A DNA stretch of 64,000 nucleotides from Eucommia ulmoides (Eukaryota > Streptophyta > Magnoliopsida > Garryales > Eucommiaceae): assembly GCA_016647705.1 (NCBI GenBank), contig CM028336.1, positions 7,577,380 to 7,641,379 on the forward strand. Direction: 5' to 3'. Every line of letters starts with the position of its first letter. Positions within the stretch are counted from its first letter, which is position 1. Below, piece by piece: positions 1 to 64,000 of this stretch. Under the pieces are notes generated by a model. The model had not been told where the DNA came from and made no database searches. It saw only the letters and a program-made list of their open reading frames with translations. Both the position numbers and the translations under genes were made by a program.

Positions 1-35
1 TTGTACGTGCTATTAGGAAAACGGATAAGAGTTGG

Positions 36-2548
36 ATGGATGTCAAATATAGATTTAGCGAAGAATACATGAAGGGGGTGGCAGCCTTTATAGAATTTGC
101 GCGAACTAATGCTATCAATAATTCGAACAAGATACATTGTCTTTGTCGAAAGTGTTTGAATTCTGTGTCCAAAACATTCTACGATGTGGAGCGTGACATA
201 CTTATGTATGGATTTCAATTAAGTCACAAAGAATGGATATTTCATGGGGAGAGGGTTTCTTTGACAATTGTTGATCATACGAGCGGCGATGAAATTCTTG
301 AGATGTTGGATGACATGCTAGGCACAAACCATATAGATGTGAGTATGGATGATGGTGATGGTGGAGGGGAAGTTCAAGAGGACTTGCATGATGGTAAAAA
401 TATAGCATTTGAGAGGATGCTTAGAGAATCACAACGTGAATTATATCCCGGTTGTTCTAAGTATTCGACACTTTCATTTGTTGTAAAGCTCATTCACATA
501 AAGGTAATGAACAAGTGGAGTAACAAATCCATCAATTCGTTTTTTCCTTTTTTGAAGGATGCTTTGCCAGAAGGTGAGACAATCCCCTCTTCACACTATG
601 GGGCCAAAAAAATGTTACGGGATTTGGGATTGGGATATTTGTCAATTCATGCTAGCAAATATGATTGTGCTTTGTTCTGGAAAGAGAATGAAAAGGATGA
701 CAATTGTCCGGTATGCTGTGAGTGTAGATGGAAAAGGAATGACAGAAAGGGTAAGAAAATTCTGCATAAAGTGCTATGCTACTTTCCATTGAAACCCAGG
801 TTGCAAAAATTGTTTATGTCGCGAAAAACGGCCGAAGATATGAGGTGGCATAAAGAGAAGCGCGTTGATGATGGTGTTTTGAGGCATCCTGCTGATGCCG
901 AAGGTAGGAAGAATTTGGATAGAAAATTTCTCGCATTTGCTAATGATCATCAAAATGTGAGATTGGGTTTGGCTACGGATGGGTTCAATCCATTTGGGAA
1001 CATGAGTAATTCTTATAGTATGTGGCCTGTCCTGCTCATCCTTTATAATTTGCCACCATGGAAGTGCATGAAAGAGCTAAATATTTTGATGTCATTGTTA
1101 ATTCCAGGACTAAAAGCTCTAGGAGATATCGATTTCTATATGCAACCGTTAGTTGATGAATTGAAAGATTTATGGTCGAATGGGGTGCACACCTACGATG
1201 CCTATATTTCAAGTCATTTCACCCTATATGCTGCACTTCTTTAGACTATAAATGACTTTCCTGCTTATGCCAATATGTCTGGGTGGAGCACATATGGGTT
1301 TAAGGCATGCCCTACATGCAACGATGAAACTCCTTCAACAAGGATACTCTCCAAAACATGTTATATGAGACATCGTCGTTTTTTGCCAGCAAATCATGCT
1401 TGGGGTAATAGTAAGAAATTTAACGGACTGTCAGAGCTTGATCCAAGACCTAAACAAATGTCTGGGCATGATGTATTACAACAACTTTTGGATTTATCGG
1501 GGACTTTCACACGATGAAAACATCCAACCAACAAGAAGAGAAAGCGTCAGGAAGATGAAAGTAACTGGACAAAGAAGAGTATTTTATTTGAACTACTTTA
1601 TTGGGTAAAGCACCAAATGAGAAATTGTCTTGATGTCATGCATATCGAGAAGAATATATGTGATAATGTTGTTGGGACTTTACTCAGTATAGAAGGCAAG
1701 AATAAAGACACAATAAAAGCACAGATGTATTTTGCTGACATGGGAATAAGAACTGAGTTACACCTAAAAAAGCACGGTGATTCCTATGTGAAGCCTCCCG
1801 CATGTTACACTTTGTCTAAGAGTGAGATACAGGGATTTTGTGAGTTTTTGAAATCTGTTCGATACCCAAACGGTTGTGTAGCGCATATATCACGATGTGT
1901 AAGCATTGCTGATGGTAAAGTGTTGGGATTAAAGAGTCACGATTGTCATGTATTGTTGTAACGTCTTGTTCCTGCTGGAATACAAGGTTACTTAGGCAAA
2001 GAAGTATGCACAACACTATTTGAGTTGGGAGAATTTTTTCGGCAATTGTATTAAAAGACACTGCGACTTCAGGTGATAGAATAATTGGAAAAAGATATTG
2101 TTCTCATCCTTGTAAATTGGAGATGATATTTATTCCTGCATTCTTCGATGTGATGATACACTTAGCTGTCCACCTTTCTGCTGAGGCAAAACTCGGGGGA
2201 CCTGTACATTATCGATGGATGTATCCAATTGAGAGATATCTCAAAACTCTGAAAGGCTTCGTTACCAACAAAGCACGTCCTGAAGCATCGATAGCTGAAG
2301 CCTATATCGCTAAAAAAAGTTTGACATCATGTTCAATGTATTTGAAAGGAATCGAAACCAGATTTAATCGGGATGAACGGAATGATGATGGTGGTAACCA
2401 AGATAGAAATATAGGGTTATCAGTTTTTTCACAAAAGGTGCGTCCTTTCGGACATGCACGTGTATGTACTGAATTGAGAACAAATTTCGAACTCGTGCAG
2501 TGGTATGTCTTGAATAACTACGAGGAGGTGAAACCATATATTGAGTAA
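36..2548 (+). pseudogene. CACTA TNP2-type transposase, decayed
   Basis: Product would be the DNA transposase of a CACTA element. Order seen: an N-terminal transposase-associated domain (about residues 1-75, with CLCRKCLN and the YGF...W.FHGE pattern), then the TNP2 core (LGLGYLSIHASKYDCALFW, ATDGFNPFGNMS, YDA..., SGWSTYGFKACPTC, the CLDVMHIEKNICDN block), then a DUF4218-like region (GGPVHYRWMYPIERYLKTLK). The frame starting at 36 continues past stops at 1242 (TAG where the family has Trp: AALL-stop-TINDFPAY), 1515 and 1959, then shifts by one base near 2105-2115 into the DUF4218 part. Relatives often begin MDKSWM; here the matching codon upstream of 36 is ACG, so the true start may be lost or lie in an upstream exon. 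A splice donor follows the GTATTGAG region near 2547. Confidence 0.88.
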
Positions 2549-41362: not shown

Positions 41363-41398
<36 letters not shown>

Positions 41399-41495
41399 AA
41401 AATTTTAATGATCCTGACGTTCACAACGCTGGGATCATTATTTTTTTTTTTTTTTTTACCAAATGGTCCCGGCATTGTGAAAGCCGAGACCATTC
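41285..41495. repeat. Left-end palindrome cluster of MULE A
   Basis: Four imperfect palindromes of about 27 bp of the form GATCCCGGTGTT..GAACATCGGGATC lie at 41288, 41335, 41411 and 41465. They are separated by A/T tracts, one containing (TA)n at 41367-41394. Matching palindromes mark the right end (56255-56384). Confidence 0.8.
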
Positions 41496-41859
41496 AAACG
41501 GCACACCACCGTCCATTTGTGGTGTGCCATTTGTTGTTTTAAGCAGCTGCATTTTGCAACTTTGATGGTCAAAGGCTGCATTTTGCAACTGCTTTTGACC
41601 ATCGGTTGGGTAGTCCTTGTGCTTTGGCTTATAATACTTCCTCCCTCTTTCCTTCTTCATTCATATTGTAATTACTTCCTCATTTCCTCAATTAAAACTG
41701 TCTGTATTCCTTCCTCATTCATACTGCCTTTCCTTCCTCATTTCCTCATTCATACTGTCAGCATTTCGACTCTTCCTCTGCTCTTCCTAAGTATTTAGCC
41801 GATTTTCTTCTTCAAAATTTGACAAATTTCACTACTTCTTCCTTGTACTACAAAGAGGT

Positions 41860-44200
41860 AAGTTTATTTTAAATTTTTTTAATTCATTTATTAGTTTAAT
41901 TAAAAGTTTTTGACTTGTTTAATTATTTAGTTTATTTGTTATTTGTTAGTTTAATTAATTTACTTGTTTTTTACACATTATAATATATTGTTCAAAAAAA
42001 ATAGTTAGATAGTTAATTAATTAGTTTAGTTGTTAATTTAGTTTTTTTTAAAAACATAAAAAAATCATTAGAGTTAGGTTAAATTTGATTAGTATATTTT
42101 TTACTTATTTAATTTGTTAATTAGTTTGCTTGTTTTGTTAGTTAGTTAGTTAATTTAATTTGTTGGTTTAGTTGTTTAATTTGTTAGTTAGTTGGTTAGT
42201 TTAATTTGTTAATTCAGTTGTTAAATTAAAAATTATACTTTGGCTTCTTTCACATGTGTAGGAAAATAAAAATTAATATATTATTTTAAAAAAAAATATT
42301 AGTTAGTTAGTTTAATTTTTTAATTTAGCTATTTAATTAAAAATATACACTTTGACCTCTAAAAGTTTGACAATTAGAAAAATATAAATTTTTAATATAT
42401 GATTTTAAAATAAATTGTTAGTTAGTTTAATTTTTAAATTTAGTTATTTAACTAAAAAATATTTGTTTAATTTGTTAATTTAGTTCTTAAATTAAAAATT
42501 ACACTTTAACCCCTTTCACATGTGTAGGAAAATATAAATTAATATATTATTAAAAAAATTTATTAGTTAGTTAGTTTAATTTTTTAATTTAGCTATTTAA
42601 TTAAAAATATGCATTTTGGTCCCTGAAAGTTTGACAATTAGAAAAATATAAATTTTTAATATATTGTTTTAAAATAAATTGTTAGTTAGTTTCATTTTTG
42701 AATTTAGTTATTTAATGTAAAACATATTTGTTTAATTTGTTAATTTAGTTGTTAAATTAAAAATTACACTTTGGCCCATTTCACATTTGTAGAAAAATAT
42801 AAATTAATATATTATTTGAAAAAATTGTTAATTAGTTAGTTAGTTTAATATTTTAATTTAGCTATTTACTGAAAAATATACACTTTGGCCCCTGAAAGTT
42901 TGACAATTAGAAAAATATAAATTTTAAATATATTTTTTTAAAACAAAGTGTTAGTTAGTTTTATTTTTGAATTTAGTTATTTAATGTAAAATATATTTGT
43001 TTAATTTGTTAATTTAGTTGTTAAATTAAAAATTATACTTTGGCCCCTTTCACATTTGTAGGAAAATGTAAATTAATATATTATTTGAAAAAATTGTTAG
43101 TTAGTTAGTTTAATTTTTTTAATTTAGCTATTTAATTAAAAATATACACTTTGTCTCCTGAAAATTTTACAATTAGAAAAATATAAATTTTTAATATATT
43201 TTTTTAAAACAAATTGTTAGTTAGTTTAATTTTTGAATTTGGTTATTTAATTGAAAAATATTTGTTTAATTTGTTAATTTAGTTGTTAAATTAAAAATTA
43301 CACTTTGGCCCCCTTCACATGTGTAGAAAAATATAAATTAATATATTATTTGAAAAAATTGTTAGTTAGTTAGTTTAATATTTTAATTTAGGTATTTAAT
43401 TAAAAAAGTGCACTTTGACCCCTGAAAGTTTAACAATTCGAAAAATATAAATTTTTAATATATTATTTTGAAATAAATTGTTAGTTAGTTTAATTTATGG
43501 ATTTTGTTATTTAATTAAAAAACATGTTTCTTTAATTTGTTAATTTAGTTGTTAAATTAAAAATTACACTTTCGCCCCTTTCACATGTGTAGGAAAATAT
43601 AAATTAATATATTATTTGAAAAAATTGTTAGTTAATTAGCTTACTTTTTTAATTTAGCTATTTAATTAAAAATTATGCCCTTTGGCCCCTGAAAGTTTGA
43701 CAATTAAAAAAATATAATTTTTTAATATATTATTTTAAAATAAATTGTTAGTTACTTTAATTTTTGAATTTTGTTATTTAATTAAAAAACTTGTTTATTC
43801 AATTTGTTAATTTAGTTGTTAAATTAAAAATTACACTTTAGCCCCTTTCACATGTGTAGGAAAATATAAATTAATATATTATTTGAAAAAATTGTTAGTT
43901 AATTAGTTTAATTTTTTAATTTAACTATTTAATTAAAAAAATATGCACTTTGGCCCTTGAAAGTTTGACAATTAGAAAAATATAAATTTTTAATATATAG
44001 TTTTAAAATAAATTGTAAGTTAGTTTAATTTTTGAATTTATTTTAAATTATTAATTAGTTAGTTTAATTTATGAATTTTGTTATTTAATTAAAAAAATAT
44101 TTCTATAATTTGTTAATTTACTTGTTAAATTAAAAAATATTCTTTGGCCCCTTTCATGTGTGTAGGAAAACAACTAAATTAAAAAATTAAACTCAAATTA
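41860..44200. repeat. Left-arm tandem repeat, period about 268 bp
   Basis: A unit containing CACTTTGGCCCCTGAAAG..TTGACAATTAG..AAATATAAATTT and, later, TTACACTTTGGCCCCTTTCA, CATGTGTAGGAAAATATAAA recurs with starts near 42350, 42613, 42886, 43150, 43410, 43679 and 43950. The spacers are rich in TTAGTTAGTTTAATTT. Inverted copies fill the right arm. Confidence 0.85.
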
Positions 44201-44317
44201 ACTAACAATTCATTTTACAACAATATCAAAATATAAATTTAATTTGTTAAGTATATATAACGAGTTTAATTTGTTACAATGATATTTTTCAACTTCATCA
44301 ATAATCGAATTTAATTT

Positions 44318-44430
44318 ATCAAAATCAGGTTTGAAAATTTCTTCTTTTTCATCTACAACAATATATTAATAGTTACAGATGAGAAAGAAGATATTTTTAA
44401 ACCTGATTCTGATAAGTTAAATAGATTAAT
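44318..44430. repeat. Hairpin with ~39-bp arms
   Basis: TTATCAAAATCAGGTTTGAA (from 44318) through TTTTTCATCT pairs with AGATGAGAAAGAAG...CTGATTCTGATAA (about 44377-44417), with about four mismatches and a loop of roughly 20 nt. Confidence 0.7.
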
Positions 44431-44647
44431 TTTTAATTAAACAACTAAATTAAAAAATTAAACTCAAATTAACTAACTATTCATTTTAAAACAATATATT
44501 AAAATTTATTTTTAATATTTGATGGAGTTGAAAAACATGCATCGACTACATATTTGTAACAAATTGAACTCGTTTTATGTGTGGGAAAATAAAAATTAAT
44601 ACATTGTTTTAGAAAAACTTGTCAATTATATATAACGTATTTAATTT

Positions 44648-44753
44648 GTTACAAATGCGTAGCCGATGCATGTTTTCAACTTCATCAATAATCGACTTTA
44701 ACTGTCTATTATTGATGAAGTTAAAAAATCTGCATCGGCTATATATTTGTAAC
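44648..44753. repeat. Hairpin with ~44-bp arms
   Basis: Left arm 44648-44691 (starts GTTACAAATGCGTAGCCGAT) pairs with right arm 44709-44753 (ends GCATCGGCTATATATTTGTAAC in sense), loop about 17 nt. A related copy of one arm lies near 44525-44560. Confidence 0.75.
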
Positions 44754-44810
44754 AAAACTTTGGCCCCTCACGGTATGACAATTAGGGAAATATGAATTTT
44801 AATTTATTGT

Positions 44811-45776
44811 TACAGTACATCAGTTGTAAAATCATTGGTTGTCCATAGGGGAACAATCTTAAATCAATTAATTGAGATGCTAAAACCATGTGTTCTTGAA
44901 AATGGGGTTACTGAAAATTTGAAACTAAATTGTAGGATGCCGATGACTTTTTTGGGTCGAATTATAAATATACCTTGTTTTCTATTGAGGATGACTCAGC
45001 ATTAAACCAAGTGTTTGAATTACCTCTTTACATACCCTCGCTTCTTGCTATTGATGTTTATGTAGAGATAAAACGTGCATTTGATGATGGTCCAATTTTT
45101 TCCCCCCAAAGTGGTCATTTTACCAACTTAATGACCTAGAGTTTTAATCCGTACAATACCCAATTTGACGGGCAATTTTTTGGCACCGTCCCCCAAGCAG
45201 TCTAGTCTAATTACACCATCCCACCCTCTTATATTCTATAATAATATCATTCCCACAGTACTCCCTTGCCGCGCCGCCAATTACTTGAGTCTAATTATAC
45301 CGTCCCACCCCCTATATTCTAGAATAAAATCATTCTCATAGTATGATAGATCGTGATCATGGAACTAGCTCTACTCTTCCACATCACCACTATTCGTCGA
45401 GTAGTCCACCGCAAGACAACACAAGTAATTATGATGGTGAGTTTGATATAATTGATAGTCTCCATGATGTGTCAGAAAAAGAGTTAGACGTGAATATTGC
45501 GTTTGAGCCAGACGAATATCTAGATGTTGGGCCTAGCAGGTAAGGGAGTCAGAATCAACAATTGGTGTAAGACCCTGATGTTTTTATTTTAGACGTATTT
45601 TAGCACATTTAGAAATAACAGGGTATATGGTATTATCTATTATTTAAACTCAAAATTTTAGGGGTCAATTTGAGATTGGCAAAAGATTAAAATGAGAATT
45701 TGGGGCTAACTAAGAATCCAAAGAAAATTAAGGGATGGATAATGTAATTAGGAAAAATAAAAATAAATTAAGATTA

Positions 45777-45816
<40 letters not shown>

Positions 45817-48800
45817 GCATGTGCAAGCCGAGACCATCCCCCAAAGCATGAACGGAGGCTGAGATCATCCCTAACGCACAATCGGAGAGACGAGACGGAC
45901 GTGGCAGGGCAAGAATCAAGCTCACACCACTTCGTGCATGCATATATATAGGTAAGAGCTGACAAAAAAACACAAAAAAAGAAGAAAAGAAGAAAAACAT
46001 AGCAGAGAAGTGAGGCAGAGGATCGGAGGTGGTGACGTCGGCCGACGGAAGGAGATCATCTGCAGGGGATGTGGGTCTGTGTGTGAGGGTGTTCGGAATG
46101 GGTGTGTGCGTGCCCAATTGATCCGATTATATGGGTAGGTTGCTCTGGCCACGGGTGAGTCGCCGGAGTGGGTAGAGAGAGAAAAGTCCAGTTCGGCGGT
46201 AAGGGCTGTCTGTCGACAGGTGATCGTCATCGGGTGTTGGTTGGCTGTGCAGGTGGTGGTTGGTAAGTGTGGTGGTGTGAGTGGGTGTTCCGAGCAGTGG
46301 GGGTGGTGCGTGTCTTGACCGTCGCCGGAGTGGAGAGAGGGAGAGGGCCTGTCGTTGCCCTGTTGTTAGTGGCTGTGGCATCATGTTTTGTTGAGTAGGG
46401 AGGTTTGCAGTGTGTGTTTCAAAGTGTGTGTGTGTTTCGGAGGTCGCCGGATGTTCGCCGGCGATAAGTTTAAAGAGAGAGAGCATCGTGTGTGTGTGTG
46501 TGTATGTGTGTTACTGTGTGTGTCGTGTGGGTGGATAGTGGGGGTGCATGGAAGGTGGACGTGGTGGTGTATAGGGTCAGTTGTCCGGCGAAGCATGTGT
46601 CCGGTTGGTGGGACGGCGAGGCGTGATCGACGGCAAGACCTTGTCGTCGGCAGCGTGACGGAGGAAAAATAAAAAAACTGTAACACAAAAACAAAAAAAA
46701 AGAGAAAGAAGAAGGAAAAAAAAAAAAAAGGGGGGAAATTACAGAAACCACCCCAGGAAAACCCAAAACCCATCTCGTGGTCGCCAAACGTTTCGAAAAC
46801 AGGTTCGCAGTCACTGGCGTCCAGATAGAGTGCAATCAGTGTCAGTTTTGCAAAACGGATATCGAGGTGAGTGTACTGTCTTCTTACCAAACTATTTTTC
46901 TATGTATATATGATGAAATACGTGTTTACTTAAATTGTATGAATTTGTAAATGATATGGATCAAGCAGGATTTGATTGAGTTGGTAAACTGAGTTTTTGG
47001 AAGATTTCGATGGTTTCCAAAATGAAACTGAAAATGAATTTTTATTGAATTTGGTAAAATCAGACGGTGTTTTTAAAAAGAAATAGAAAACATCTATTCT
47101 CCTAAGGATGTCCGGTTTTCAAAAGGAAAAATAAAGGGTGGAAAAGTTGTTTTGAAAGAATCAGACGTTTTCTCTAAAAAGAAAAGTGGGAAATATGCTT
47201 TTGGACTTAAAAGTTGGTTTTGAGAAAAAGAGATAGACGTGGTGATTTAACAATGTTGATGATATTTATTGAGTTGTGATTTGATGATGCTGTAGTTGAT
47301 TTGACAATGCCCTAGTATTTATCTGTTTCGATAGAGTGAGATTATCCGATTCAGCGGAGTGATGTCATCCGCTACGGCGAAGTGATGTTTATCTGCCTCG
47401 GCAGAGTGATGTTAGACGTTTATACTGCGCAGTGATTATCCGCTTCGGCGGAGTGATGGGTATTCGTAGGAAGGCATATCCTACGGATGGTATGGTACCA
47501 TTGCAAACTCCCGATCGTGAGGTTAAAACGATCATTAGGGCTGGCCAGTGTGTGTGTGTTGGAGGTGTGTGTTTGAGATTGGTGTTTGAGATGTGGTGTT
47601 TTACGTATATTGGTTGATTTGATGTTATTTATCATGATGTTTGGTAGGATTTTGTACTTGATGGATTTGGGGTGGAATTTATCTATATCGCTTTATTTTC
47701 ATTGCTTATTTACTTATGCTTGATCCATACTAAATTGTGGAAATATTTAGAACGTATTAATATTTAAAAAAATATTTTACTAAGAAGGCAGTACACTCGC
47801 AGGTACAACAGCTAGGAGTCGGTCCCTTACTGGCACTAGGTAGAGCTATGTGATGAAGTCATATAGGCGATTGAGAGAAGCTGTTAACGACGAACCTATA
47901 AAAGGTTCAGGGATAAATACTTTTAGTTAATCTAATTTTGGGACGGGTGTGTCCCCCATAGTAGGTATTTGTATTATACAGTAGGTGTATATTGTCATTG
48001 ATATGAAACTTTGGGTATTAGTGATGTCATGTTGTAGTCACGCCCGCCTCGGGATGACGGGTGTCCGGGACGGGTTGTGACAATTGGAGTTAGACAGGAT
48101 TATTCCATTTTTTAATAACTTGAACTGGGGTAACGACGATGACATGGATAAATACGAGCCGAAGTTGTGGAAGAATTTCTGGACACCGAAGATGGATGAA
48201 TTTCCTACTAATACGGTATTTTAGGATAAGGAACATGTCCAGCAGGTCGTCAAATTTTACCGCGTGAAGAAGAACAAAGAGTTTTATGTCTTGGAAACAA
48301 ACAAGAAGGTCTGGTTAGTTCATTATTCACATGGATGCGGTTGGAGGTTGTAGGCAAGTAGGAAAAAAAGTCACGGTATGTTTAAGATTAGGCAATATGA
48401 GGGGCAGCACACATGTTTCTATAATCATACTGTTCTAGATCATAAAAATTTGGATTCTGGACTCATTTTGAACCTAATACTTGGATAAATCGAATAGGAT
48501 CCAGAATTGAAGGTTAGCGTCATTGTGGCTTACGTGAAAGAGTCTTATGGATATACTATCTTCTACCGAAAAGCTTGGTTGGCTAGATCTAAAGCCATCG
48601 AGACCTTGTTCGGAGCTTGGGATGAATCATATCGGAAGTTACTGTAGTTTATGGTCTCGTTACAGCACTACAATTTGGGTACGATTATTGAGTGGAGTAT
48701 TATGTCGACTGATATGCCTAGCTATAGGACATTCGACATGGTATTTTGGGCATTCGAAACTTCAGTAGACAGATGGCATTATTGTCGCCCTGTAATCACC

Positions 48801-50056
48801 ATTGATGAGACCCACTTGTATGGTAAATATGAGGAGAAGATTTTAATCACCATTGAAATCATATTGTCCAACAAGTGCTACCCATTGGCATTCGCTATCG
48901 TACTGACGGAAGACTACCGTTGCTAACGATGGTTCATCTACATACTTAAGCGTCATATTGTCGGTGATTATCATGAGATGACATTGATATCTGACAGAGG
49001 CGTCGGTATTATTAGTGTGGTTGGTAGTATTTGGCTTAATCAACATAACGAGCCCCTCCGATATCATCGATTTTTGTTTGTAGCACTTTTGCAGCAATTT
49101 CAACAAGATTGCTAAAAATTAACATCTCAAAGATTTTGATTGGAATGTGGGTATTGCAACACAAATTCAAAGATATCATGGAAGAGATCAAAACAATTGA
49201 TCTTCGGCTACATAAATGGTTGAACGATATTCCAGCTTACAAATGGACCAGGGCACACGACAATGGTAAGCATTGGGGAGTCATGACGACCAATTACGCA
49301 GAGGTATTTAACAGCTGTTTGAAGGGTGCAAGAAATATTCCAATAACTGCATCCGTCAAGATTACGTTCTACAGGATGGTTAAATACTTTGATATTGGTC
49401 GACAACAAGCTCTAAAGGACTTAATCGACGATTACGTATATGTTAAACATGTCGTTGAAAAAATACAGAAATCTCAAGCCAAGTCTAAAACATACACGAT
49501 TTAAATATTCAATCGATAATTTAGTATTTATTATTATTTTTTTCACGTTACATATAATTGTTGCAACACATATTTTAATAAAATATGTTTTTTTCCTAGA
49601 GAGAATATGATCTACCACTTGAAAACTAGAAAGACTGTCACTAGGGGCTTGATTCCTCACGAAGTCACACTAAGGGATAACGCTGATTACACCTATGACA
49701 AGTATAAAATTTGGCGATATCCGTGCTCCCATATGTTTGCGGCCACCAAGTATAGTGGAGTTAATACATTCTACTAAATTGCAGCTGAGTACACAATGAC
49801 AAATCAATTGATGGCATGGGAGTCATCGTTTCGGCCGATTATTCACGAGGACTCATGGGCAGAGACCAATTTTTCAAACCTGATTCCAGACCATAACAGA
49901 CTTCAAGTTGTGCATCGTGGTCGACCAAATTCCACTAGCATTCAAAACGAGATGGATCAGTTGCAAAGAACAATGACAAATCGTTGCGGTTTATGTTCCC
50001 AAACTGGACATGATAGGTGGAAGTGTCTATCCCGACCCCGCCATACACCCAATTGA
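44811..50056 (+). pseudogene. MULE A mudrA-type transposase, decayed
   Basis: Product would be the MULE transposase. N-terminal frames from about 44811 (HRGTILNQLIEMLKPCVLEN) and 45343-45540 (acidic, PDEYLDVGPSR) are followed, after a solo LTR at 45566-48082, by WKNFWTPKMDEF, a MuDR-type region (SHGCGWRL, FKIRQYEGQHTC), and a transposase core with the first Asp in VITIDETHLYGKY, a second in LISDRGVGII and the Glu in TTNYAEVFNSCLKGARN. The SWIM finger has YTYDKYKIWRYPCSHMFAA, with Tyr where the first two Cys are expected. A complete CX2CX4HX4C knuckle (CGLCSQTGHDRWKC) ends the protein at 50056. Many in-frame stops and shifts show it is dead. Confidence 0.85.
45566..48082. mobile_element. Solo LTR, Gypsy type, inside the MULE A transposase
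   Basis: A 2517-bp insert with ends TGTAAGACCC and GGGTTGTGACA is flanked by a perfect 5-bp duplication ATTGG (45561-45565 and 48083-48087); the transposase frame continues on both sides. The TGTAA-ACC start and the GGG-TGTGACA end resemble LTRs of Tekay/Del-like Gypsy elements. No gag-pol is present. Inside are (CA)n at about 45794-45816, (TG)n near 46490, and repeats of about 30 bp built on TCCGCTTCGGCGGAGTGATG (47340-47460). The perfect duplication suggests it is younger than its degraded host. Confidence 0.85.
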
Positions 50057-50230
50057 TCTTGTTGGTTCATTGTAATGAATGTTTAAGCAACTTTATTTAT
50101 TTGTTATGTCAACTTTTATGTATTATAAATTTCATACACTTGTCACACACATTTCTTTATAATGAATGTTATATTTTATTTATAAATGTGATTAAATTTT
50201 AATTTCATACTAACAAATTTACCACAAGTG

Positions 50231-52603
50231 TTGCGGAAAACAATTTCAACTGTGCATCCTGGGTCTGAAGATACTTCAGTTCTACACCTGCAGGCGGAGC
50301 ACAAGTCCGAACTAGTCTGGACAGCACATGTAAATATTTAGGCTATTGCATTAATTTTTTTATTTTAGTTTTTTAAAATTTTGATGTTATTTATTGTGTC
50401 TTATTAAATGTTTCAGGATATTAGTACTTTTGACTGTGCTGGATATGATATAGGGGAATGGAGAGAAAATATTCCCCCTCGAGTTATACTATTGATAGAA
50501 TCAATCGGTTTGTACGGCCCATTTAAGTTGTGGCCAAAGCGGTTAGATAAGGTCTTCATAACTGCGTTGGTAGAGAGATGGCGTCCGGAGACGTATACTT
50601 TCCATCTACCTGTCGGGGAGATGACCATCACACTACAGAACATGGCCATCTTATTGGGGTTACTCGTGCATGGCTGCCAGTTATCGTCTCTAAGGACTCG
50701 CGACTGGTACACGGCTGGCAGAAACTTTGCGTTGAGCTCCTTAGAGTGGAACCACCAGTGAATAAGATTAAGAATGGGTATTTGACGCTCAAGTGGTTGT
50801 GTAATACCTTTGCTCAAGTTCCTAACAAGGCTGACGAAGAGGTTATGCATTGCTACGCACGTGTGTATTGCCTGATTATGCTTGGTCAGATGTTGTTGCC
50901 TAATAAATTGCACAACAGAGTTAAGCTAGCCTACCTCCCACTGCTTGGTGACTTGACACCTTTTGTCAAGTATAGCTGGGGCAGTGCGACCCTAGTGGTC
51001 CTCTACCACGAGCTATGTAAGGCGACGAAGCCCAACATAAAAGACATAACCGAATGCCTATTTTTGTTGGAGTTTTGGGCTTGGGAGCGATTGCCGAGGC
51101 TTCGGCCTGAAGTTTTCCCTTTCTCCTAGTATGATATATCATTCGAAGAGCTGGACTTCGGTGACAACTTGACGTTCCCAGCTGCTTCGAGGGGTGCTTG
51201 GTAAGTAATTAGTATTTTCTTTTTAATTTCATTTATCATGTAATGGATATTTATTTATGGATATTAAACTTATGGTTTATATTTTTGGTGTACAAGTAGA
51301 CCCTTGAGTTCAATTTGGAAACTTTGCCGATGCATGTTTTGGTGGTGTATCGCGATCAATTATATCGCTTGAAGAATGACAAGGTTAGTTATTTATTTAC
51401 ATCAAATTTTTTTTATTTGTTTGTTTATATTTTATTTTACAGGTCATTTAAATGCCATATACCCTGCCGACTTTGTCTCTATATACTAGAAATGGAGAAT
51501 ATATATGGATGACAAAGTTGTCCCTAATTTTCTATGATATTGTCGAGTACACGTATCCCCTGCGCGTGCTACGACAGTTTGGTTATTGCCAAGGGATTCC
51601 TGAGTCGGTAATTATGGACAAGAACTTGCACAAAATTACTTGGCGGGGATACTTCAGTGTGAACTGAGCTGAGTATCACCACACATATATAGTTGTGTGG
51701 AATTATCGACGAGCACTAGATGTCGAAAACTTCGAGTAATGGTTAGGGGTTGACCAAGAATACATGGACTGGTATTGGAGAATCACACGAAGGTTATTGG
51801 TCAACCCAGCGTACCGAGCTCAATTTAGGTATCTAGCAACAGGAGGACGAGTGGTGTTAGAGGTATGATCACATTGAGTGTACCATCTATTTAGTTATAT
51901 GAGTTTGATTATGTTGTTATTATTCATGTATTAACTTAACGATTATATGTGTTTCGTAGGATTAGAAGGTATCGAACCTGATGCGCATGAGTCATCTAAC
52001 TCTATGGACGCGTATTACGGAATCATACAACGAGTTGGCTCATGTCGTCTACGATACCACCGTCACGGCAATGTACCATTGGGTACCGCGCCATGTGGCA
52101 GCTGACGTTCCTTTATCTCATCATGCTGCTCCTCAGCTTTCTCCTCTACCATGGACTTTTGTGCCTACCATCCAGGTAGTGTGGGTGATATCAAACCTTC
52201 TACATCATACAGCATGGGCACTTATGCTGGATCATCTAGTACGTACGGCATGGGTGACGATGTTGGGTCATCCGACGTATACCAGATGCATAACCCTTAT
52301 TTGCATTACACATCGCAGCTAGGTACACACTCGTCATCATCATTCGTCACTTTGTCGATGGACAAAATTGTCTCAACTTCAGATGTGATTCCTTCGATGC
52401 CATTCGTCCAACCCACAAGATTGGAAAGACAAGTATCATCGGTGCCGTGGTTCGGGGACGATATCGATGCCAACCCAGGGATCATGCAACAGTCGTTCTT
52501 AGGCTATGGAGAAGTTATACAGGTTAATTAGGAGGCTGAGGAACCTCCTATTGCTCAGCGTCAAGGGCGAAGGAACATTCGACGTAGGGGCTGTAGTACA
52601 TAG
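50231..52603 (+). pseudogene. Plant mobile domain (PMD) gene of MULE A, decayed
   Basis: Encodes a protein of the MAIN/MAIL-like plant mobile domain family, found both as host chromatin/silencing factors and as passengers of plant transposons. Exon-like blocks: 50231-50334 (PGSEDTSVLHLQAEHKSELV), 50417 to about 51200 (YDIGEWRENIPPRVI, LVERWRPETYTFHLPVGEM, TITLQNMAILLGL, VKYSWGSATLVVLYHELCKA, LLEFWAWERLPRLRPE), 51300-51384, 51444 to about 51860 (MPYT, YPLRVLRQFGYCQGIPESV) and 51960-52603 (YNELAHVVYD, C-terminal RRNIRRRGCST). The whole PMD order is recognisable. There is one frameshift between about 50660 and 50690 and stops at 51127, about 51450, 51665, 51737, 51961 and 52528, so it is not functional. 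It starts about 175 bp after the transposase stop, same strand. Confidence 0.87.
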
Positions 52604-52708
52604 TTAATTATATAGTTGATAGTTTAGTTATAGGAATGTAGATGCATTTCTTTTGTAAATACATTTTTTTGTAACGTTTATAGATTTAGAAAGTTGTTGA
52701 TCTACTGT

Positions 52709-52932
52709 ATATATTACTTTGCAAATGGATACAGAATTTGATTGCGAGATCGAGCAAGGTGTCTAAGATTCCAGAAATATTCTTAAAAAGGCATACGGTG
52801 TGGAAATTGGTTGCGTCTATATATATTCAACCAATTTCCACTCCATATGCCTTTTTAAGAATCTTTCTTGAATTTTAGACATCTTGCTCGATCTCGCAGT
52901 TAAATTCTGTATCCATTTGCGAAGCAATATAT
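52709..52932. repeat. Long hairpin with 105-bp arms between convergent genes
   Basis: Left arm 52709-52813 and right arm 52828-52932 are inverted copies with about 90% identity (both contain GCAAATGGATACAGAATTT, GCGAGATCGAGCAAG, ATTCTTAAAAAGGCATA, GTGGAAATTGGTTG in sense). The loop is 14 nt. It lies about 105 bp after the PMD stop and about 230 bp beyond the end of the minus-strand small ORF, so transcripts from either side could read into it. A MITE remnant, a convergent 3'-end structure or a small-RNA hairpin are all possible. Confidence 0.85.
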
Positions 52933-53165
52933 ATGGTATATCACCTAATATATTATGGAGCACATTGAAAGAGTATAATATTAAAGGCGAAACAACTTAA
53001 AATAATCATAAATATCATATTAAAAAAAATTACATAAATTAGAAACATGTTTAACGGTGTTTGTTACAAAACTCATAACAAAGACAATACATAAGAAATA
53101 CAGTACATAATATCACAAAAATAATAACAATAAAAACACTTAAAAAAAAATACTAGAGCAAAAAA

Positions 53166-53676
53166 TTATTTATTCTTCATTAGACATGTACTCCTCAGAC
53201 AAATATTCATTGTTATTTATCACATTATGGTATTCGATTAGAGAGAGTGCTCGGTTGCTTACGGCAGCCATTTCATTGGTTAGTTGTAGTAGATAATATC
53301 TTTTCATGCGCAACAACATCCGATTATTCTCTAGGCAAATTCATGTAATAACACCTTCAATCTCGCTTGTGTCATCAATTATACATCGTCTAGGCATCTG
53401 AAGAATTCGACGATGCGGAACTGGTACATTAAGATTTCTCAAACAAGATACAAGATTGTTAGATTCATTCACCCTATATTCCCATTCTTGGCATAGACTG
53501 ACGCGATACTCTATCGGGTTGGTCTCTTGATCACTCCAGTAATCATCATAATATGGTTTTAGAACCCAACATCTTTGGTAATCCCACGGTCCAGGCTAAC
53601 CCCAAACATCATATAAGTTCTTCTCACTTGAAAAATCAAATGAGCTTTCTTCACTTGAATTAATATGTGAAGACAT
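53166..53676 (-). pseudogene. Small acidic-tailed protein of MULE A, ORF S1 (unrecognised)
   Basis: One continuous minus-strand frame of about 170 codons starts ATG at 53676 and ends TAA near 53176. Only two in-frame stops (after NLYDVWG and after EGVIT) and no shift interrupt it. Visible features: Ser/Glu-rich N-terminus, PGPWDYQRCWVLKPYYDDYW, CQEWEYRVNESNNLV, NVPVPHRRILQMPRR, an Asn/Leu-rich helix-like segment, and the acidic end EEYMSNEE. I do not recognise a family. It resembles ORF S2 (53965-54398) in block order. A single-frame, low-damage state suggests it was a real gene of the element. Confidence 0.65.
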
Positions 53677-53964
53677 CACGAAAATTATAGGCTGAACAAT
53701 TTCTTTACAAATATTATACTGCAAATTATGAGTTTCCAAAAAAATTAGTTTTTTTAAAACATAATTAATGAAAAATGATATTTTATAACTTATGTACACG
53801 AGACTTAACTAAAAAAAAAAACTAATCCAACACCACCTATTAATTGAAAGAGAAAAAGTCAGTTGTTTGGTAGAAATAGCGTTATTATAATTTAACGTAG
53901 AAACGATATATTAGATTTTAAAGGAAATACATAATTAAACTACAATTCACCAACGCGAAAACAT

Positions 53965-54398
53965 TAAACATTACTCTCATCATTAGACATTTTAATATCT
54001 GACTGATATTGAGAATTCTTTACGCATTTCATGTAAGTACGTGCTTCAGCAAACAAACCTTATTCGAGATGCTCATGTGCCGTCTTTTCAAGCTCACGTT
54101 AAAAAGTTTGACTTTGCATTCAGTTATTTTATTCGCGGTAGCGATCCAACGCCATTTGAAGGTTATGCGGCGAGTCTATTGGCATTGTTCTGACCAATTG
54201 ACGCACTATTGGAATATTATCTTACCTGTATCCGTCCACCATAACCTCTAATTGGTTGACATGATAAGTGTATTCCTCCCGTATCCTTGCAATTGACCGT
54301 GAAGAGTAACGAACTCTTGGATCTAAAGAGTATGAGAATTCGTCTTCTAAAAGCCAGTGACGTCTCATTGAACGATACAAATCTCTCACCGTGTACAT
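53965..54398 (-). pseudogene. Small acidic-tailed protein of MULE A, ORF S2 (unrecognised)
   Basis: A minus-strand frame from ATG at 54398 of about 145 codons ends with MSNDESNV and TAA near 53965. Five in-frame stops but no shift are seen. Features: RDLYRSMRRHWLLEDEFSYS, REEYTYHVNQLEVMV, NIPIVRQLVRTMP, MALDRYRE, a charged helix-like segment and an acidic tail. GTAAGA at the first stop (after MVDGYR) could instead be a splice donor. Shared pattern with S1: W-L, then EE/EW..Y.VN, then N(I/V)P(I/V)..R..(R/Q)MP, then a MSN(D/E)E tail. Lies upstream of S1 on the same strand, about 290 bp apart. Function unknown. Confidence 0.6.
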
Positions 54399-54419: not shown

Positions 54420-55850
54420 TTAGTTTTTAAATTATTCAATAATTTAATTTTTTTCAAACACATTAAAAAATAAATTAATTAAGCAACTAACATTTGTTTT
54501 TTTTGAAAATAATCTATTATAATTTCTATTTCAATTTTTAATTTTCCACATGTGTAATTTATCAAACTTTGAGGGGCCAAAGTGCATATTTTTAAATTAA
54601 ACAACTAAATTAAAAATTTAAACTAATTAACTAAATAATATTTTTTTTTTAAAAAAACAATATATTATAATTTATATTTTTTTCACACATGTATAATTTA
54701 CTCAAATTTTGAGGAACCAAAGTGCATAATTTTCAATTAAATAACTAAATTAACAAATTAAACTAACAAACTAACTAAGAAATTAAACAACTAAGCTAAC
54801 AAATTAAATTGACCAGCTAATTAACAAATTAAATAAGTAAACTAACTAACAAACATATTAACTAAATAATTAAACAAGTAAAAAATATAGTAATCAAACT
54901 AAGAAATAAATTAAAAAAAAAAAAATTCTTTTATTTTTATATTTTCTCACATGTGTAATTAATCAAACTTTGAGGCGCCAAAGTGCACATTTTTAATTAA
55001 ATATTTTTTAATTAAACAACTAATTCAAAACTTAAAGTGCACATTTTTAATTAAACAACTAATTCAAAAAATAAACTAACTAACAATTTATTTTAAAACA
55101 ATATATTAAAAATTTATATTTTCCTAATTGTCAAACATTTAGGGGCCAAAGTGTATATTTTTAATTAAATAGATAAATTAAAAAATTAAACTAACTAACT
55201 AACATTTTTTAAAATAATATATTAATTTATATTTTCCTACACATGTGAAAGAAGCAAAAGTGTAATTTTTAATTTTAAATCATTTTAACCAAATTCAAAA
55301 ATTAAACTAACTAACAATTTATTTTAAAATAATATATTAAAAATGTATATTTGTCTAATTGTCAAACTTTCAGGGGCCAAAATGTGTATTTTTAATTAAA
55401 TAGCTAAATTAAAAAAATAAACTAACTAACTAACATTTTTTTTAAATAATATATTAATTTATATTTTTCTACACAAGTGAAAGGGATCAAAGTGTAATTT
55501 TTCATTTAACAACTAAATTAGCAAATTAAACTAACCAATTAACTAACAAATTAAACAGTTAAACCAACAAATTAAATTAACTAACTAACAAAACAAACAA
55601 ACTAACTAATAAATTAAATAAATAACAAATTAAAATTAAACTATCCTGTAATGTTTTAAAAAATAAAATTAACAACTAAACTAATTAACTAACTAACTAA
55701 TTATTTTTTTAAACAGTATATTATAATATGTAAAAAATAAGTAATTAATCAAACTAACAAACATGTAAATTAGTCAAACTAATAAATAACAAGTAAAAAA
55801 CATACTAATCAAATTAACAAATAAATTAAAAAAAAAAAAAACTTACCTTT
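54420..55850. repeat. Right-arm repeats of MULE A, inverted relative to the left arm
   Basis: Units with CTAATTGTCAAACTTTCAGG, GGCCAAA(A/G)TGTGTATTTTTAAT and TACACA(A/T)GTGAAAG read as the reverse complement of the left-arm unit. About four to five copies are recognisable with starts near 54560, 54690, 54950, 55130 and 55360, against about seven in the left arm. Spacers are rich in AAACTAACTAACAA. Confidence 0.85.
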
Positions 55851-56400
55851 GTAGTAGGAGGGTGGAGTTGTGAAATTGTAAATTTGTTTAATTTTGATGA
55901 AGAAAATCGGCCAAATAAATTATGAGCACTTTGATTAAAATGAAGAAAAACTTTGAATGAGAGCAAAACTCTCCTAAGTATGAATGGAGGAAGCATAAGA
56001 AAGAAGGAAATGAGGAAAAAAAAATGAGAAAGAGCAGAGCAACTCAGATAGATAATGTGTAGGAAGGAGAATGAGGGTAGATGTAGGCACCGGGACTAAA
56101 AACCAAAGGAGCTGCATTTTGCAGCTGCAAGGGTCAAAATTTTCTAGCTGCAAAAGGTTGCCTGCAAAAAGCAGGTAGCCTTTGGTCGGTCAAACGGTGT
56201 ACCGTTTGATCGGCCAAACCCAACGGCACATAAAAAACGGCGATGTGCCATTACGGTCCCAGTGTTGTGAACACCAGGACCGCTTAAAAAAAATTATATT
56301 TAATGGTCCTGGCGTTCACAATGTCGGGACCATTTAGTTTAAAGAATTTTTTTTTTATCCCGGCGTTGTGAACGCCGGGATCAAGTTAAATAAAAAAAAG
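55851..56400. repeat. Right-end palindrome cluster of MULE A
   Basis: After a unique stretch containing GCTGCATTTTGCAGCTGCAA words shared with 41545-41590, three 27-bp palindromes lie at 56255, 56304 and 56358. The last is perfect: 12-bp arms GATCCCGGCGTT / AACGCCGGGATC with a GTG loop. They mirror the cluster at 41285-41495. Confidence 0.8.
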
Positions 56401-56409
56401 GGGCGCTGA

Positions 56410-57510
56410 CTGAACAGTCTTAAAAGGCGCTGTAAACTACCAATTAAACCTTCTCACATTTTCTTGCACCGCCTGATCTTTTTGCTATTTTAGTGACGAT
56501 AATACCCCCTTGTTGTGCCTCACGCTGAACAACCCATCTGATCTTGCTAACGTCCCCTGTTTTTCGGGATCTAAATATTGTAACGAATTCAATATATTGC
56601 GGACATTGTATATCGTTTTTATCTCATATTTCCGTTTGAAAAAACATAAAAATTGAAACACTAAATTATATGCGTTTGATTATCCTCGAAATGAAGTGTT
56701 AATTGCATTTTTTGGAGATTTTTTACTTGATGTAACTGATGTTACATGTAACATTTAAAAAGATCAGTAAAAATTTCATGTCATCCGTTTTATAATCATG
56801 TTACATGTAACATTTTCAATAATACATGTAACATCTGTTCACGTTGCATGCATATCCATGGTGTGCAAAAAAAATAATGTCACATGTAACATCCATATAA
56901 CATTACTGAGTAAGTGTCCATGACGATGATTTCATTGACGTTACATGTAACATTTGCGCGTTGTGTCCATGCCAAAATAATTCGTATCCATGGTGTGTGA
57001 AGTTATAAAAATGTTACATGTAACATCCATTTTAATATTACTGAGTATGTGTCCATGACGATAATTTCATTGATGTTACATGTAACATTTGCATGTTCTG
57101 CCAATAATTCCATATCCAAAGTGGGGTTGTCGTTAACATTACTGAATATGTGTGTCCATAACAATGATACATGTAACATACTTTTTGAAACTGGAAAATG
57201 TGAATGTATCTGGAAAATGTTACATGTAACATTTGATCGTTGGTTCTTAAAATTGTCAGTTTTTTCCAGTTTGTGTTTTTGGGATGCAACCCAGACGTTG
57301 CAAATAAGTGTCAACCCACCAAAATAATAGTTCGTGCATCCAAAAAATAGTTGTGTTGCATTTTACACAGCACAAAACAACAAAATACCAATTATACCTT
57401 TCATACAAAAATGAAATCTAGCTATGTATGATGTTTAAACCAAACAAAGACAGGTTAAAAAGCAATTTGTTCTAATCCATTCAAAACAAAACTCTGGTTT
57501 TCAAGTTGTT
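56410..57510. repeat. MULE B 3' non-coding region with TTACATGTAA palindromes
   Basis: Nine or more copies of AATGTTACATGTAACATT or close variants lie between 56740 and 57235, often followed by words such as CATTACTGA(G/A)TA(T/A)GTGTCCATGACGATGATTTCATTGA that repeat with a period of about 120-130 bp (near 56905, 57035, 57140). No gene. Confidence 0.75.
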
Positions 57511-60500
57511 CTATGCTTCTTCAGCACGACGTGTTTCGTTATTTTTCCTTGTTTGGAAGTCATCAAAAGTCCAAGATCTGGGTGGCTCATTGAGGAATTC
57601 GTGCACGACTGCTGCTCTTTCTCTTCTAAAACCTTCAATGCCATAATTAACGTTGATTTGTACGCTGTTGAATATGCTCTTCATGACATGGATTATAGAA
57701 ACACTGCAATCAACGTTGCGAAATATATTATGTTAAGAGAATTCATCAATAACTGGTGTGTTTGGGTAACATAATTAATTAGCGATAAAATGAAGTGCAC
57801 TTACACAGATGATCCCTAATCTTGCACATTATTGGAAGTCATCCAACAGTTGATATTCACTAGCTTCCTTTAATAATAATGCATTAACATAACGAACCTA
57901 CATTTGAACATGGAACAAAATGGTGAGGATTATTCATTCAACATTGGACTAGCAACAAAAAGCTTCAAACCTATGTATTGAAACTCACAAGTCTTTTTGC
58001 ATTCTCGTAAAATCTATCAACATCTCCAGGACATCGGAGGTTGATCGAATTGTAGTGTGTCCACTTCTTCTCTCGCTTATCACAGACAAGCAGTGTCCAG
58101 TGTCCCGTTGATGATGTCAATCCTACAGTATTTATTGGGAAATGCACGAATCTATAGTTGTTGGAAAATGCTTCTATAATTTTTGGGTTAAAATTGTCAG
58201 CTAATACTTTATTGTCCCCCTGTGTAATCCAAAACTGTATATATTGTAAAACATTTCAAAAAATTAGTAACACGCAAATGTGTGCATGCAAATCAAACAA
58301 AAAACACACACACACACACACACTAAAAATGTAAAAAAAAAATGTAACAGTTTGATTACCCAGCAACAACTATTGATGAAATATGACCGATTTGGCAAAT
58401 CATGACCAATCCCTTTTAAATCACTTGCAACCTTTCCTTGATCAAGAAACATCATCTCCATACATCCATTGATGACCTAAAAAACGTTTTATTAGTCACC
58501 AATATAATGTTATAATCATTTGTATATTTTTAAAATAAACAAAAAAAATGTAAGTAACATAACCGTCGTGTTGCATGTTACATGTAACATACATATATAG
58601 GTTTGTAATGTTACATGTAACATTGACAAAAACATCACGAGATATAACTATTAAAATGTTACATGTAACATTACACCTAAAAGTTACATGTAACATCGCA
58701 AAAATGAAATGTTATATGTAACATTTCACCTGTTTTAACAAGAAGTGACTCACAATATTTGATAGTTGAGTCTCCCACATCAACCCAATCAAATCAATAA
58801 TGGATACTTGAGCAAACACCCATTCTACTCCCTAAACAAATGCTCTGGAATAAAAATGAAAAAAGTAAAACAAAAATGATGTACATCTAATGTCCATCAT
58901 TCCAAAAAATAACATATTTGACACTTAAACTTACCTATGTCCATCCTCCCGTATAATCAGATTGAGTTTGTGCCAATCATCGTCTGCAATCATTTTTGCA
59001 ATGGCGCTGTTGCGTGGAGGCAATTCTTGAGGTTCATCACCGTTGTGGGCCAATGTACTTTGCTCATTGCTCTTCATAACATCAGGGATTGGTACATCAT
59101 ATTTTTTCTTCAATCGTCGTGGTTTCTTGACAGGTACATCGTATTTGTGGACTGAATCATCATCAGTCTTCCGTGACCTCACGCAACTCTTGACGTTCTT
59201 TATAAGGGATGTTGGTGTCTTGGTTTCAGCCTTTGTACGCATACTATGCCTAAACTTCGGTTTTGTTGGAATTGACGTCTTTGGTGGTGAATTGTGGGCA
59301 TCAATGATTGATGCTTGCCTGACAATCACGTTGTCTCTATCTTCGAGTTCACACTGGTAAAACTTTGTCAGACTAGACATTTTTTTAGTATGTTCCCTAT
59401 CTTTCTCTACTGTCTGTGTTACCGAATGCACAACAACTTCTTCAAGCTATTCCACCATCCTCTCCTATTACGTAACATTGTAAACTTTGGCTTCGACCAA
59501 CTTCTCGTATGTTTTCTTTTTCTCTTCCATCAACCTCTCTATCTCAGCCTGCAATTGGTTTTTCTCATCAACAATCCGCTCTATCTCACCTTTCAGATGT
59601 TGAATCTCTTTTGTCATTCTTCTCTTCATCTTCTTGCGCTTCACCCTCACTTTATCAACCTTGCGTAATAGTTTCTGATTGCTTTTGACAAGCTCTGTTA
59701 AATTTTGTGAACCGCCACAAAATTTAACAACGTCCTCATCAAATGGATGTGATATTAACAAATCAAAGAACGACATATCGTCAGCAACAGACACCTCATC
59801 TTCTCCCTTAATCTTAGCACTTGTATTAGATGAACTAGCCTCTGTGTCACCGTGCACATGTAGTACAACACCTGTCCTGAGCTCCGACACTAGTTCTGAT
59901 GTTAGTCTCTAGATAACCTAAACTCATCAGTAAAAAAGTGCAAAAAACAATGTCATGTATCAGAAATACACTAAAACACCCCCCCTCCAATTGTGTTACA
60001 TGTAATATTTTTATACCTTGTTTTTTAATGTAACACAAATTGTGTTACATTTAACAACTTCTTTTTTGTTAAAATCATCATGCCAAATTGTATTATATTT
60101 AACATTCTTTTTTGTACATCAACAAAAAAAACCCACCTGGTATATAGTTAAATTGCGAAATCCAAGGTCGGCCGACATCGATGTCATCATGTCCCGTTTC
60201 AGAAAATTAGGGAAAAAAAAACACACCTGATCAACAATTAAATTCGGAAAATCTAATCCGGAAGCAACCGATGTCAACACCATCATATCCCATTTTAAAA
60301 AACGAAGGACTGCAACCATTTTTTATGCCACTGGCGGGATCAATCTTGAGTGTTCGCACAACCAAAAGTGAAAAAACAACATAAAATCATTTTGTAGAAA
60401 AAGGTATATATTTTGCACAATTACTACTGAAAATTAGCACTGTTGTTATTACCTGCAAGACAATGACACATCTAATTACAGAGATCGGTCTCTAATACCC

Positions 60501-62814: not shown

Positions 62815-64000
62815 ACAGAATCTCTTGATATAACTCAGTCTTATGCCAACGGGTCTTTCCATGTCTTCCTGTTGTGTGTCCCCATTTTTCCACATCTCCC
62901 ACACTTTCTTTCTTTTATCTTACCCCTTGACGGTATTCTTACTTTCTTCGACCGACCCGGTTGCTTCTTTGACAATGGTAGTAATATAATTGCTTCGCTC
63001 TCAACCCACATAGGTTGCTCAATTGTCGGGATTGCATATATTTCTCTCGAATAGGTCTCACAGTAAAATTTGACGCTGAAGTATTCTTCTACGTAATCAT
63101 GTGCTGGCAAGCCGCTCTTGTTATTCACTGCACAACCGTGTATGCAAGAGAACCCATTTATCTGCCATTGTCTACACGAGCATGATTATCCCACCATATC
63201 AACTAGCGCTAATAGAGATGAATGAATCTCATAATTGCCATTACCAGATTAGCTGATATTCCATATTCTTCCTTCATTAATCAACTCGCACAATTTTTTA
63301 TCACAAAACGGTGTTATATCACCATCAATATTTTTAGATTCTTGTCTCCTATCGGACATTATGTCCATCCACCGTATTCTAATTTTCTCAATCAACAATA
63401 TTGCAGTCAAATGACGATATTCATTTATCCAAGAATTGAAACATTCCACCATGTTTGATGTCATCTCACCGTAACATTTTCCCCGAAAAAAAGCATTACT
63501 GAATTTCATTGCAGATAGATCGTGCATGAATTGCTGAACTTTTTCTCCGCCTTCGTACATTTTTTGATCATACAACATTTTATAAACTTCCGGTGTGTGC
63601 GCAAACGCCAACCCGTTTAATTTCTGAATCATTAATTCCTTGAGTGTGGTGTTTCTCCCAACCATTGCAGCCCTCAGATTCATTTTTAAATGCAATAGGC
63701 AGTATGCATGGTGGCAAGATCACGATCTGATATAAACGTGATCACAAGATCCGTCACAACGATCTTTCTGAACTCAAATAAAAACCAATTCCAATTCTCA
63801 TCATTTTCTGCATCCACAATTGCAAATGCAATAGGGAACATCCCTACAAAATCAACCCAATCACAAAAATCTCAATCAATAAACGCGTATGATATATTTG
63901 TTACATGTAACATACATTTAAGTTTTTAGTGTCAGGGAAAAACAATGTTGTACTATACACTAAATATGAAAATCATTTACATACATCACCTTGGTTACTA
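62815..64000 (-). pseudogene. MULE B mudrA-type transposase, C-terminal part
   Basis: Minus-strand frames give the transposase C-terminus; the rest lies beyond 64000. Order: MHLKMNLRAAMVGRN (from 63695), the catalytic-Glu region MTSNMVECFNSWINEYRHL, IRIRWMDIMSDRR, then the SWIM finger CSCRQWQINGFSCIHGC (about 63130-63185), HDYVEEYFSVKFYCETYSRE, and a zinc knuckle KCGRCGKMGTHNRKTW, in which the spacing before His is one residue longer than CX4H and the last Cys is Trp. A probable intron lies between 63195 and 63245. The altered knuckle suggests this copy is decaying. Confidence 0.82.

Follow-up and report, generated by a model that had tools for sequence, protein, structure and literature searches.

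Two small frames in a decayed Mutator-like element (MULE) of Eucommia ulmoides, S1 and S2, are paralogous genes, and the element to which they belong is a PMD-carrying, TIR-bounded and recently mobile MULE. We consider it fairly probable that they form an accessory gene pair of this element, in which they would act as helpers. The pair was noticed in a stretch of 64,000 nucleotides, in the following called the window, where a sequence-only reading had proposed it as an undescribed MULE component. This interpretation is supported here for one MULE family in the Eucommia genome. Accessory genes of MULEs such as mudrB, VANB and ORFR are a puzzle because their functions are partly or wholly obscure and their sequences evolve fast. 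S1 and S2 are paralogues with open copies and measurable constraint, a natural rearrangement alters which gene adjoins the terminal repeat, and the family lends itself to studies of accessory-gene function because its recent insertions are nearly identical.

The S1 and S2 frames and their relationship

S1 and S2 are tandem minus-strand frames inside the decayed MULE. S1 (53170..53676) comprises 168 codons that span positions 53676 to 53173 and a stop codon that ends at 53170, while S2 (53964..54398) comprises 144 codons from 54398 to 53967 and a stop codon ending at 53964. In the window copy, S1 is interrupted by two internal stops (codons 27 and 112) and S2 by five (codons 59, 90, 93, 100 and 113). 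Both the location of the two genes and the earlier claim that each is a single frame broken by stops only were confirmed. When compared with dinucleotide-based shuffles, the S1 frame is more open than expected (2 stops vs 13.5, P 2e-4 for the frame and P 0.028 as the best of six frames), and for the S2 frame taken by itself the openness does not exceed chance (5 vs 8.8 stops, P 0.12; P 0.61 as the best of six frames). A donor-like context noted by eye at the first stop of S2 brought up the possibility of an intron, which was rejected because in-frame homology to S1 crosses this stop and because 22 of the 40 copies scored in the genome are wholly open. It is also unlikely that S2 and S1 are two exons of a single gene, since they align with each other from the middle to the end.

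A local alignment of the S1 and S2 proteins from the window scored 71, compared with 31.0 ± 5.4 for shuffled sequences, and none of 5,000 shuffles reached this value. With the acidic tail left out the score was 55, equalled by three of 5,000 shuffles, and with the loosest gap costs it was 107, equalled by one of 3,000. Among six-frame stretches from the rest of the window, none scored above 52 with S1 (1,725 stretches) or above 48 with S2 (1,473 stretches). Comparison of an open S1 (copy L084) with an open S2 (copy L089) resulted in 33% identity over 108 columns (blastp E 1e-11) and a score of 124 vs 32.6 ± 5.6, which was not reached in 10,000 shuffles, so the similarity lies far above that of shuffled pairs, as the sequence-only reading had anticipated. 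At the DNA level the alignment of S1 with S2 does not surpass shuffled sequences, 147 of 500 of which equal its score, and identity by codon position amounts to 0.40/0.52/0.32 vs 0.25/0.29/0.27 by chance; the likeness is therefore one of proteins. In open copies, both share the blocks R-x-E-(W/Y)-x-Y-R-V-N (K replaces R in one of six sequences), N-x-P, R-x-R-x-E-N-N-R-M and an M-S-x-x-E tail. The order of blocks that had been described for the window thus holds, with the second block corrected to YRVN and ENNRM added on the basis of the open copies. ENNRM is the strongest block and is masked by decay in the window copy.

Neither Pfam nor NCBIfam contains a family matching S1 or S2 above its cut-off. 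The best sub-threshold matches were to NDUF_B5 (E 0.0028, a single S2, below the cut-off) and HEXIM1 (E 0.25). A sequence search of the PDB returned no convincing match for either protein, and the S1 model retrieved nothing from PDB folds with Foldseek at E ≤ 0.001. AlphaFold2 models, built for the read-through window proteins with a two-row alignment, are of low to moderate confidence (the mean pLDDT is 62.5 for S1 and 60.9 for S2) and feature helices at residues 18-25, 54-81 and 103-167 of S1 and seven helices in S2. Both proteins are thus predicted to be mostly helical with an acidic C-terminal tail. The acidity of the tails, already claimed from the window, is borne out by the open copy L025, in which the last 20 residues of each protein carry a net charge of -4; the calculated pI values for this copy are 5.2 (S1) and 7.9 (S2).

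The element, its copies and its two gene orders

The window copy of the element is arranged in the order left arm, transposase (+), PMD (+), S1 (-), S2 (-) and right arm. The decayed transposase (48195..50053, plus strand) features DBD_Tnp_Mut and MULE domains, both of which fall below the curated cut-offs in this copy (E 3.5e-4 for the MULE domain PF10551), and a C-x2-C-x4-H-x4-C knuckle near its end that was recognized by eye. The decayed PMD gene (50408..52603, plus strand) contains its domain (PF10536) at 50408-51129 in two frames; its end was placed by eye from frames and open copies. The domain itself matches in the window, and other copies carry the PMD gene as judged by DNA likeness. 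The element is enclosed by an AT-rich left arm (41792..44811, plus strand) and a right arm (54446..55917, minus strand) that is inverted with respect to the left one. Outside the arms, an inverted-repeat piece on the left (41395..41497, plus strand) pairs with one on the right (56299..56395, minus strand).

All seven copies retrieved with flanks of 1.5 kb (L002-L008) carry the transposase of the window on one side of the S1-S2 block and its PMD gene on the other. A copy on contig C62 constitutes a unit of 14,319 bp with an identical 60 nt at both ends and TTATAAACTC on both flanks, a 10-bp target-site duplication, and S1 and S2 lie inside this unit. The idea that transposase, PMD gene, S1 and S2 make up a four-gene MULE is upheld by this unit and by the co-occurrence in seven of seven flanked copies. 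Terminal repeats together with an 8-11 bp target-site duplication around the S1/S2 unit were found in one of the three copies examined, the one on C62. The twin of the C62 element on C5 sits within a (TA)n run where a duplication is unreadable; the window copy has inverted arms, no target-site duplication was found around it, and its outermost sequence does not match the C62 termini at up to five mismatches. The pair-bearing element is not a Pack-MULE, as a transposase is present within the S1/S2 unit. Loci L094 and L098 (G000:C5:545774-559934) represent a recent copy within a (TA)n run; a MULE family targeting TA microsatellites is described for Medicago in an excerpt of PMC4486113.

The genome searched was the assembly from which the window stems (946.7 Mb, 391 contigs). 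Here, the S1-S2 stretch gave 1,293 first-look candidates, 40 of which were scored; these are the copies most similar to the window and no random sample. Apart from the window itself, all 39 scored matches are full length with 90-92% identity, and a 29-base piece of S1 occurs at 261 places in the genome at up to two mismatches, compared with none for the reversed control. With the window counted, S1 is open in 24 and S2 in 22 of the 40 scored copies, each with unchanged start and stop; both are open in 15, and neither is open in the window copy. Some pairs of copies are 99.8-100% identical across 1.2 kb, and transposition must therefore have been recent. The search for homologues in other MULE copies that had been suggested for S1 and S2 was thus productive, and all homologues found reside within their own MULE family in this one genome. 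Relatives of S1 or S2 were encountered neither in viral_contigs nor in genome_contigs, both of which are collections without plant genomes, and viral_contigs likewise yielded neither the arm pattern nor PMD.

An above-cut-off PF10551 match is present within 8 kb of 25 of the 40 S1-S2 places, among 150 domain matches listed of 2,936 candidates, such that a missing match does not equal absence. In 24 of these cases, among the same 150, the distance is 1,124-1,143 bp and in one it is 4,008 bp. Counted by eye, 18 of the 150 listed matches belong to an open transposase frame of 757 amino acids, and 12 of these frames adjoin an S1-S2 place. None of the best 30 MULE domains of the genome has S1 or S2 within 1.5 kb, a result of little weight given that the distance to the pair is about 4 kb in window-type copies. 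Twelve further transposase copies, chosen by eye from the domain list and not at random, were read downstream. Eight of them are followed by the pair, which is absent from the stretch read in the other four (L079/L090, L080/L091, L081 and L087), and S1-S2 may therefore be dispensable. In the vicinity of one MULE copy where S1/S2 was not found, locus L090 (G000:C1:34752100-34755483) contains an open frame of 434 amino acids (1-1302, plus strand) that by eye resembles a pentatricopeptide-repeat protein.

Two gene orders exist within the family. Read from the transposase-S2 junction, 34 of the 39 fetched copies have the block inverted, giving transposase (+), S2 (+), S1 (+), PMD (-), and five have the S2-arm junction of the window. 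S1 and S2 are thus located on the strand opposite to the transposase in the window copy, as had been claimed, but not in those 34 copies. The further transposase copies contribute five inverted pairs (L078, L082, L084, L088, L089) and three of the window type (L085; L083 with L092; L086 with L093). In a block tree of 48 rows with L093 as the root, all 39 inverted copies fall into a single clade (support 97) that is free of window-type members, and the nine window-type copies branch outside it. In the inverted element on C5, equivalents of the end of the transposase region (50011..50213, plus strand in the window) are present twice and in opposite orientations, once behind the transposase and once beside the right arm, and we interpret the doubled piece as a footprint of the inversion. 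The tree, the doubled piece and four further lineages in which transposase and PMD are collinear (L079, L080, L083, L086) indicate that the gene order of the window is the ancestral one and that the PMD-S1-S2 block was, most simply, inverted once, before the burst. The start codon of S2 lies 48 bp from the inner edge of the right arm in the window, while in the inverted copy L005 roughly 175 bp separate the end of the transposase frame from the start of S2, and it is PMD that faces the arm.

Selection and origin of the pair

The more diverged copy L093, which contains the pair and was found, as was L092, downstream of other transposase copies, allows selection to be assessed between lineages. 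Between the S1 genes of L025 and L093, 23 nonsynonymous changes and the same number of synonymous ones were counted, which corresponds to a dN/dS of 0.22 (Fisher P 2.1e-6); the S1 of L093 holds one stop, and stop-bearing codons were omitted from dN/dS. The other frames on the same strand gave 0.69 and 0.68, those on the opposite strand 0.86, 0.42 (P 5.7e-3) and 1.15. For S2, 22 nonsynonymous and 16 synonymous changes between the same copies correspond to a dN/dS of 0.33 (P 2.6e-3), with 0.61 and 0.74 for the other same-strand frames and 0.50 (P 0.03), 0.40 (P 4e-3) and 1.11 for those on the opposite strand. Two opposite-strand frames of S2 thus also have low values, and the constraint on S2 is therefore less firmly tied to its frame. 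Further comparisons with L093 resulted in 0.26-0.28 for S1 (L088, L082, L084, L092) and 0.34-0.43 for S2 (L088, L089, L078), all of which have the L093 branch in common and are not independent. PMD, serving as a positive control, gave 0.20-0.37 in three pairs.

Values near or above 1 were obtained among the 40 similar copies, with a dN/dS for S1 of 1.08 for singletons and 0.94 for shared changes and nonsynonymous/synonymous ratios for S2 of 1.39 and 1.50; they fit decay after insertion and lend no support to constraint. Window and L025 differ with a dN/dS of 0.49 (S1) and 0.85 (S2). The high ratios between L025 and L092 (for S1 1.26, from 6 changes; for S2 4.4, from 17 changes) may reflect decay and likewise give constraint no support. 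Judged from these substitution patterns, S1 is under purifying selection between lineages and S2 probably is as well, in a less frame-specific manner. The notion that the duplicated pair was kept under selection for a time is accordingly retained for S1 between lineages and, less firmly, for S2.

When L083 with L092 is compared with L086 with L093, dS is 0.285 for S1, 0.19 for S2 and 0.94 for PMD. The possibility that lineages recently exchanged the S1-S2 block was considered because the pair has diverged less than PMD has in these elements; it is not supported, as the order of lineages agrees in the segments compared.

A different origin of the pair, which we regard as unlikely, is that an older MULE took up one or two host-gene fragments, which were duplicated and kept as cargo that has lost its importance for the element. 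MULEs often capture genes, and such cargo would be in line with the lack of the pair in the stretch read of four of the 12 further transposase copies as well as with a dN/dS of about 1 within the burst. Purifying selection on S1 between lineages speaks against mere cargo, as does the presence of the pair in the window-type, inverted, L092 and L093 lineages, across which its divergence follows the order of lineages also seen for transposase and PMD. Early capture of a host gene followed by recruitment may nevertheless be how S1 and S2 originated.

Possible function, the repeat arms and known MULE systems

The role of S1 and S2 as helpers of the transposase or the PMD protein is put forward tentatively, guided by position and by analogy. 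The two proteins would be self- or cross-associating partners of one of these proteins and would aid excision, re-insertion or expression, much as mudrB does in MuDR. In the ancestral order, S2-S1 begin next to the right arm, which would drive them; the inversion places PMD next to this arm and S2-S1 a short way downstream of the transposase, on the same strand as the latter. In MuDR, mudrB starts at the far TIR. By position and selection S1 and S2 would resemble mudrB, a resemblance to be distinguished from shown homology. A more far-reaching version, to which we assign a low probability, envisages an undescribed helical, acid-tailed pair, e.g. a hetero-oligomer serving transposase or PMD protein, with a single inversion that re-timed gene expression and started the burst.

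The arms deserve attention in this context. The left arm consists of 266-bp tandem units and bears 16 forward ACTTTGGCCCCT boxes, the right arm bears six reversed ones. These 22 mirror-oriented boxes (up to two mismatches) are located at 42237-44757 and 54572-55482, whereas shuffles yield fewer than 0.05 per arm. No further ACTTTGGCCCCT box is present outside the arms in the 64-kb window, and the arms of the C5 and C62 elements also bear mirror-oriented boxes of this kind. The box is a candidate binding site for a protein of the element. It is conceivable, but in our view quite improbable, that S1 and S2, instead of assisting the transposase, counteract silencing or exert regulation at the tandem-repeat arms, jointly with the PMD protein or by way of it, comparable to VANC in VANDAL elements. 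VANC targets non-coding tandem repeats that contain short motifs (PMC5735166, PMC10398659), and the arms consist of tandem repeats bearing a short box in mirror orientation, which is absent elsewhere in the window and kept in other copies. However, a Pfam search detected no DNA-binding domain in S1 or S2, binding of the transposase accounts equally well for the boxes, and the link between box and protein is a supposition. DUF1985 and DUF287, the VANC-type domains, were not found in S1 or S2 either. The anti-silencing protein VANC contains DUF1985 (PMC5735166), and a weak match to this domain (E 0.0011, 19.4 bits with a cut-off of 35.1) was noted in a piece of the PMD gene at 50551-51129 of the window.

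Chance open frames in decayed DNA with spurious likeness, which could appeal to the chance-level openness of the S2 frame alone and to the one in 3,000 shuffles that equals the window score at the loosest gap costs, are highly improbable and were rejected together with artefact on the grounds of open copies, paralogy and selection: same-ended open frames in 24 (S1) and 22 (S2) of 40 copies, the score of 124 between open copies with none of 10,000 shuffles reaching it, and selection on S1 refute them unless the copies by luck descend from one unselected ancestor.

Returning to S1 and S2 as an accessory pair, additional MULE ORFs with partly explained or unexplained functions are an accepted category that includes mudrB, vanB and MutB (PMC6446971); this and the following statements on published elements refer to excerpts of the papers cited. 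PMD occurs beside the MULE transposase in sense or antisense orientation depending on the clade, and one clade is tabulated with an 'unknown ORF and PMD (antisens)' (PMC6446971, Table 1). MULEs capture PMD, and an anti-silencing use has been suggested (PMC5418596). Table 1 of PMC6446971 lists PMD-carrying MULEs without a small paralogous pair. While published PMD orientation follows the clade (PMC6446971), the Eucommia MULE family combines both orientations in a single family, joined by one inversion.

Abermu (PMC9168764) comes closest. It resembles the Eucommia element in having a transposase, a second ORF on the same strand and, located between ORF1 and the 3' TIR, an ORF in reverse orientation. 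This ORFR has a Ka/Ks below 1, shows no likeness to MURB and is of unknown function. Abermu differs, as far as a comparison by description goes, in having a single reverse ORF, with no paralogous pair described, and the term 'plant mobile' is absent from PMC9168764. In MuDR, mudrB is convergent to the transposase, as is S2-S1 in the window, and is needed for insertion (PMC6446971, PMC9168764), but by description it is one gene whereas S1 and S2 are two paralogues. VANDAL21, with VANA, VANB and VANC, shares extra genes, among them VANB of no known function, and tandem repeats with short motifs (PMC5735166, PMC10398659, PMC6446971); S1 and S2 differ in being devoid of DUF1985 or any other Pfam domain, and VANB was compared by description only. 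A paralogous pair of this kind is not described in the excerpts of open-licence literature, which is weak evidence of absence, with PMC9168764 the closest report. S1 and S2 may be identical to one of the published unnamed MULE ORFs.

A near-perfect palindrome (52698..52943, 2 x 123 nt, fold z -23), the arms of which are 87% complementary, occupies the interval between PMD and S1, whose 3' ends converge. It matches no Rfam family at the gathering threshold. Both of its arms are also present in L085 and in L093, where an insert separates them, L092 has them in part, and one arm occurs in all 13 inverted copies examined. Possibly, the palindrome serves both genes as a terminator or gives rise to dsRNA. 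Beyond the right arm, the window contains a piece of a Ulp1 peptidase domain at 57971-58255 on the minus strand (PF02902, E 0.0044, below the cut-off) and, by eye, a transposase-like piece at 63249-63871, which perhaps represent a second, ULP1-carrying MULE. A repeated palindrome like ATGTTACATGTAACAT, along with repeated peptides, was recognized by eye in the neighbouring element at about 56730-57000; judged from the frames, it continues to about 62500.
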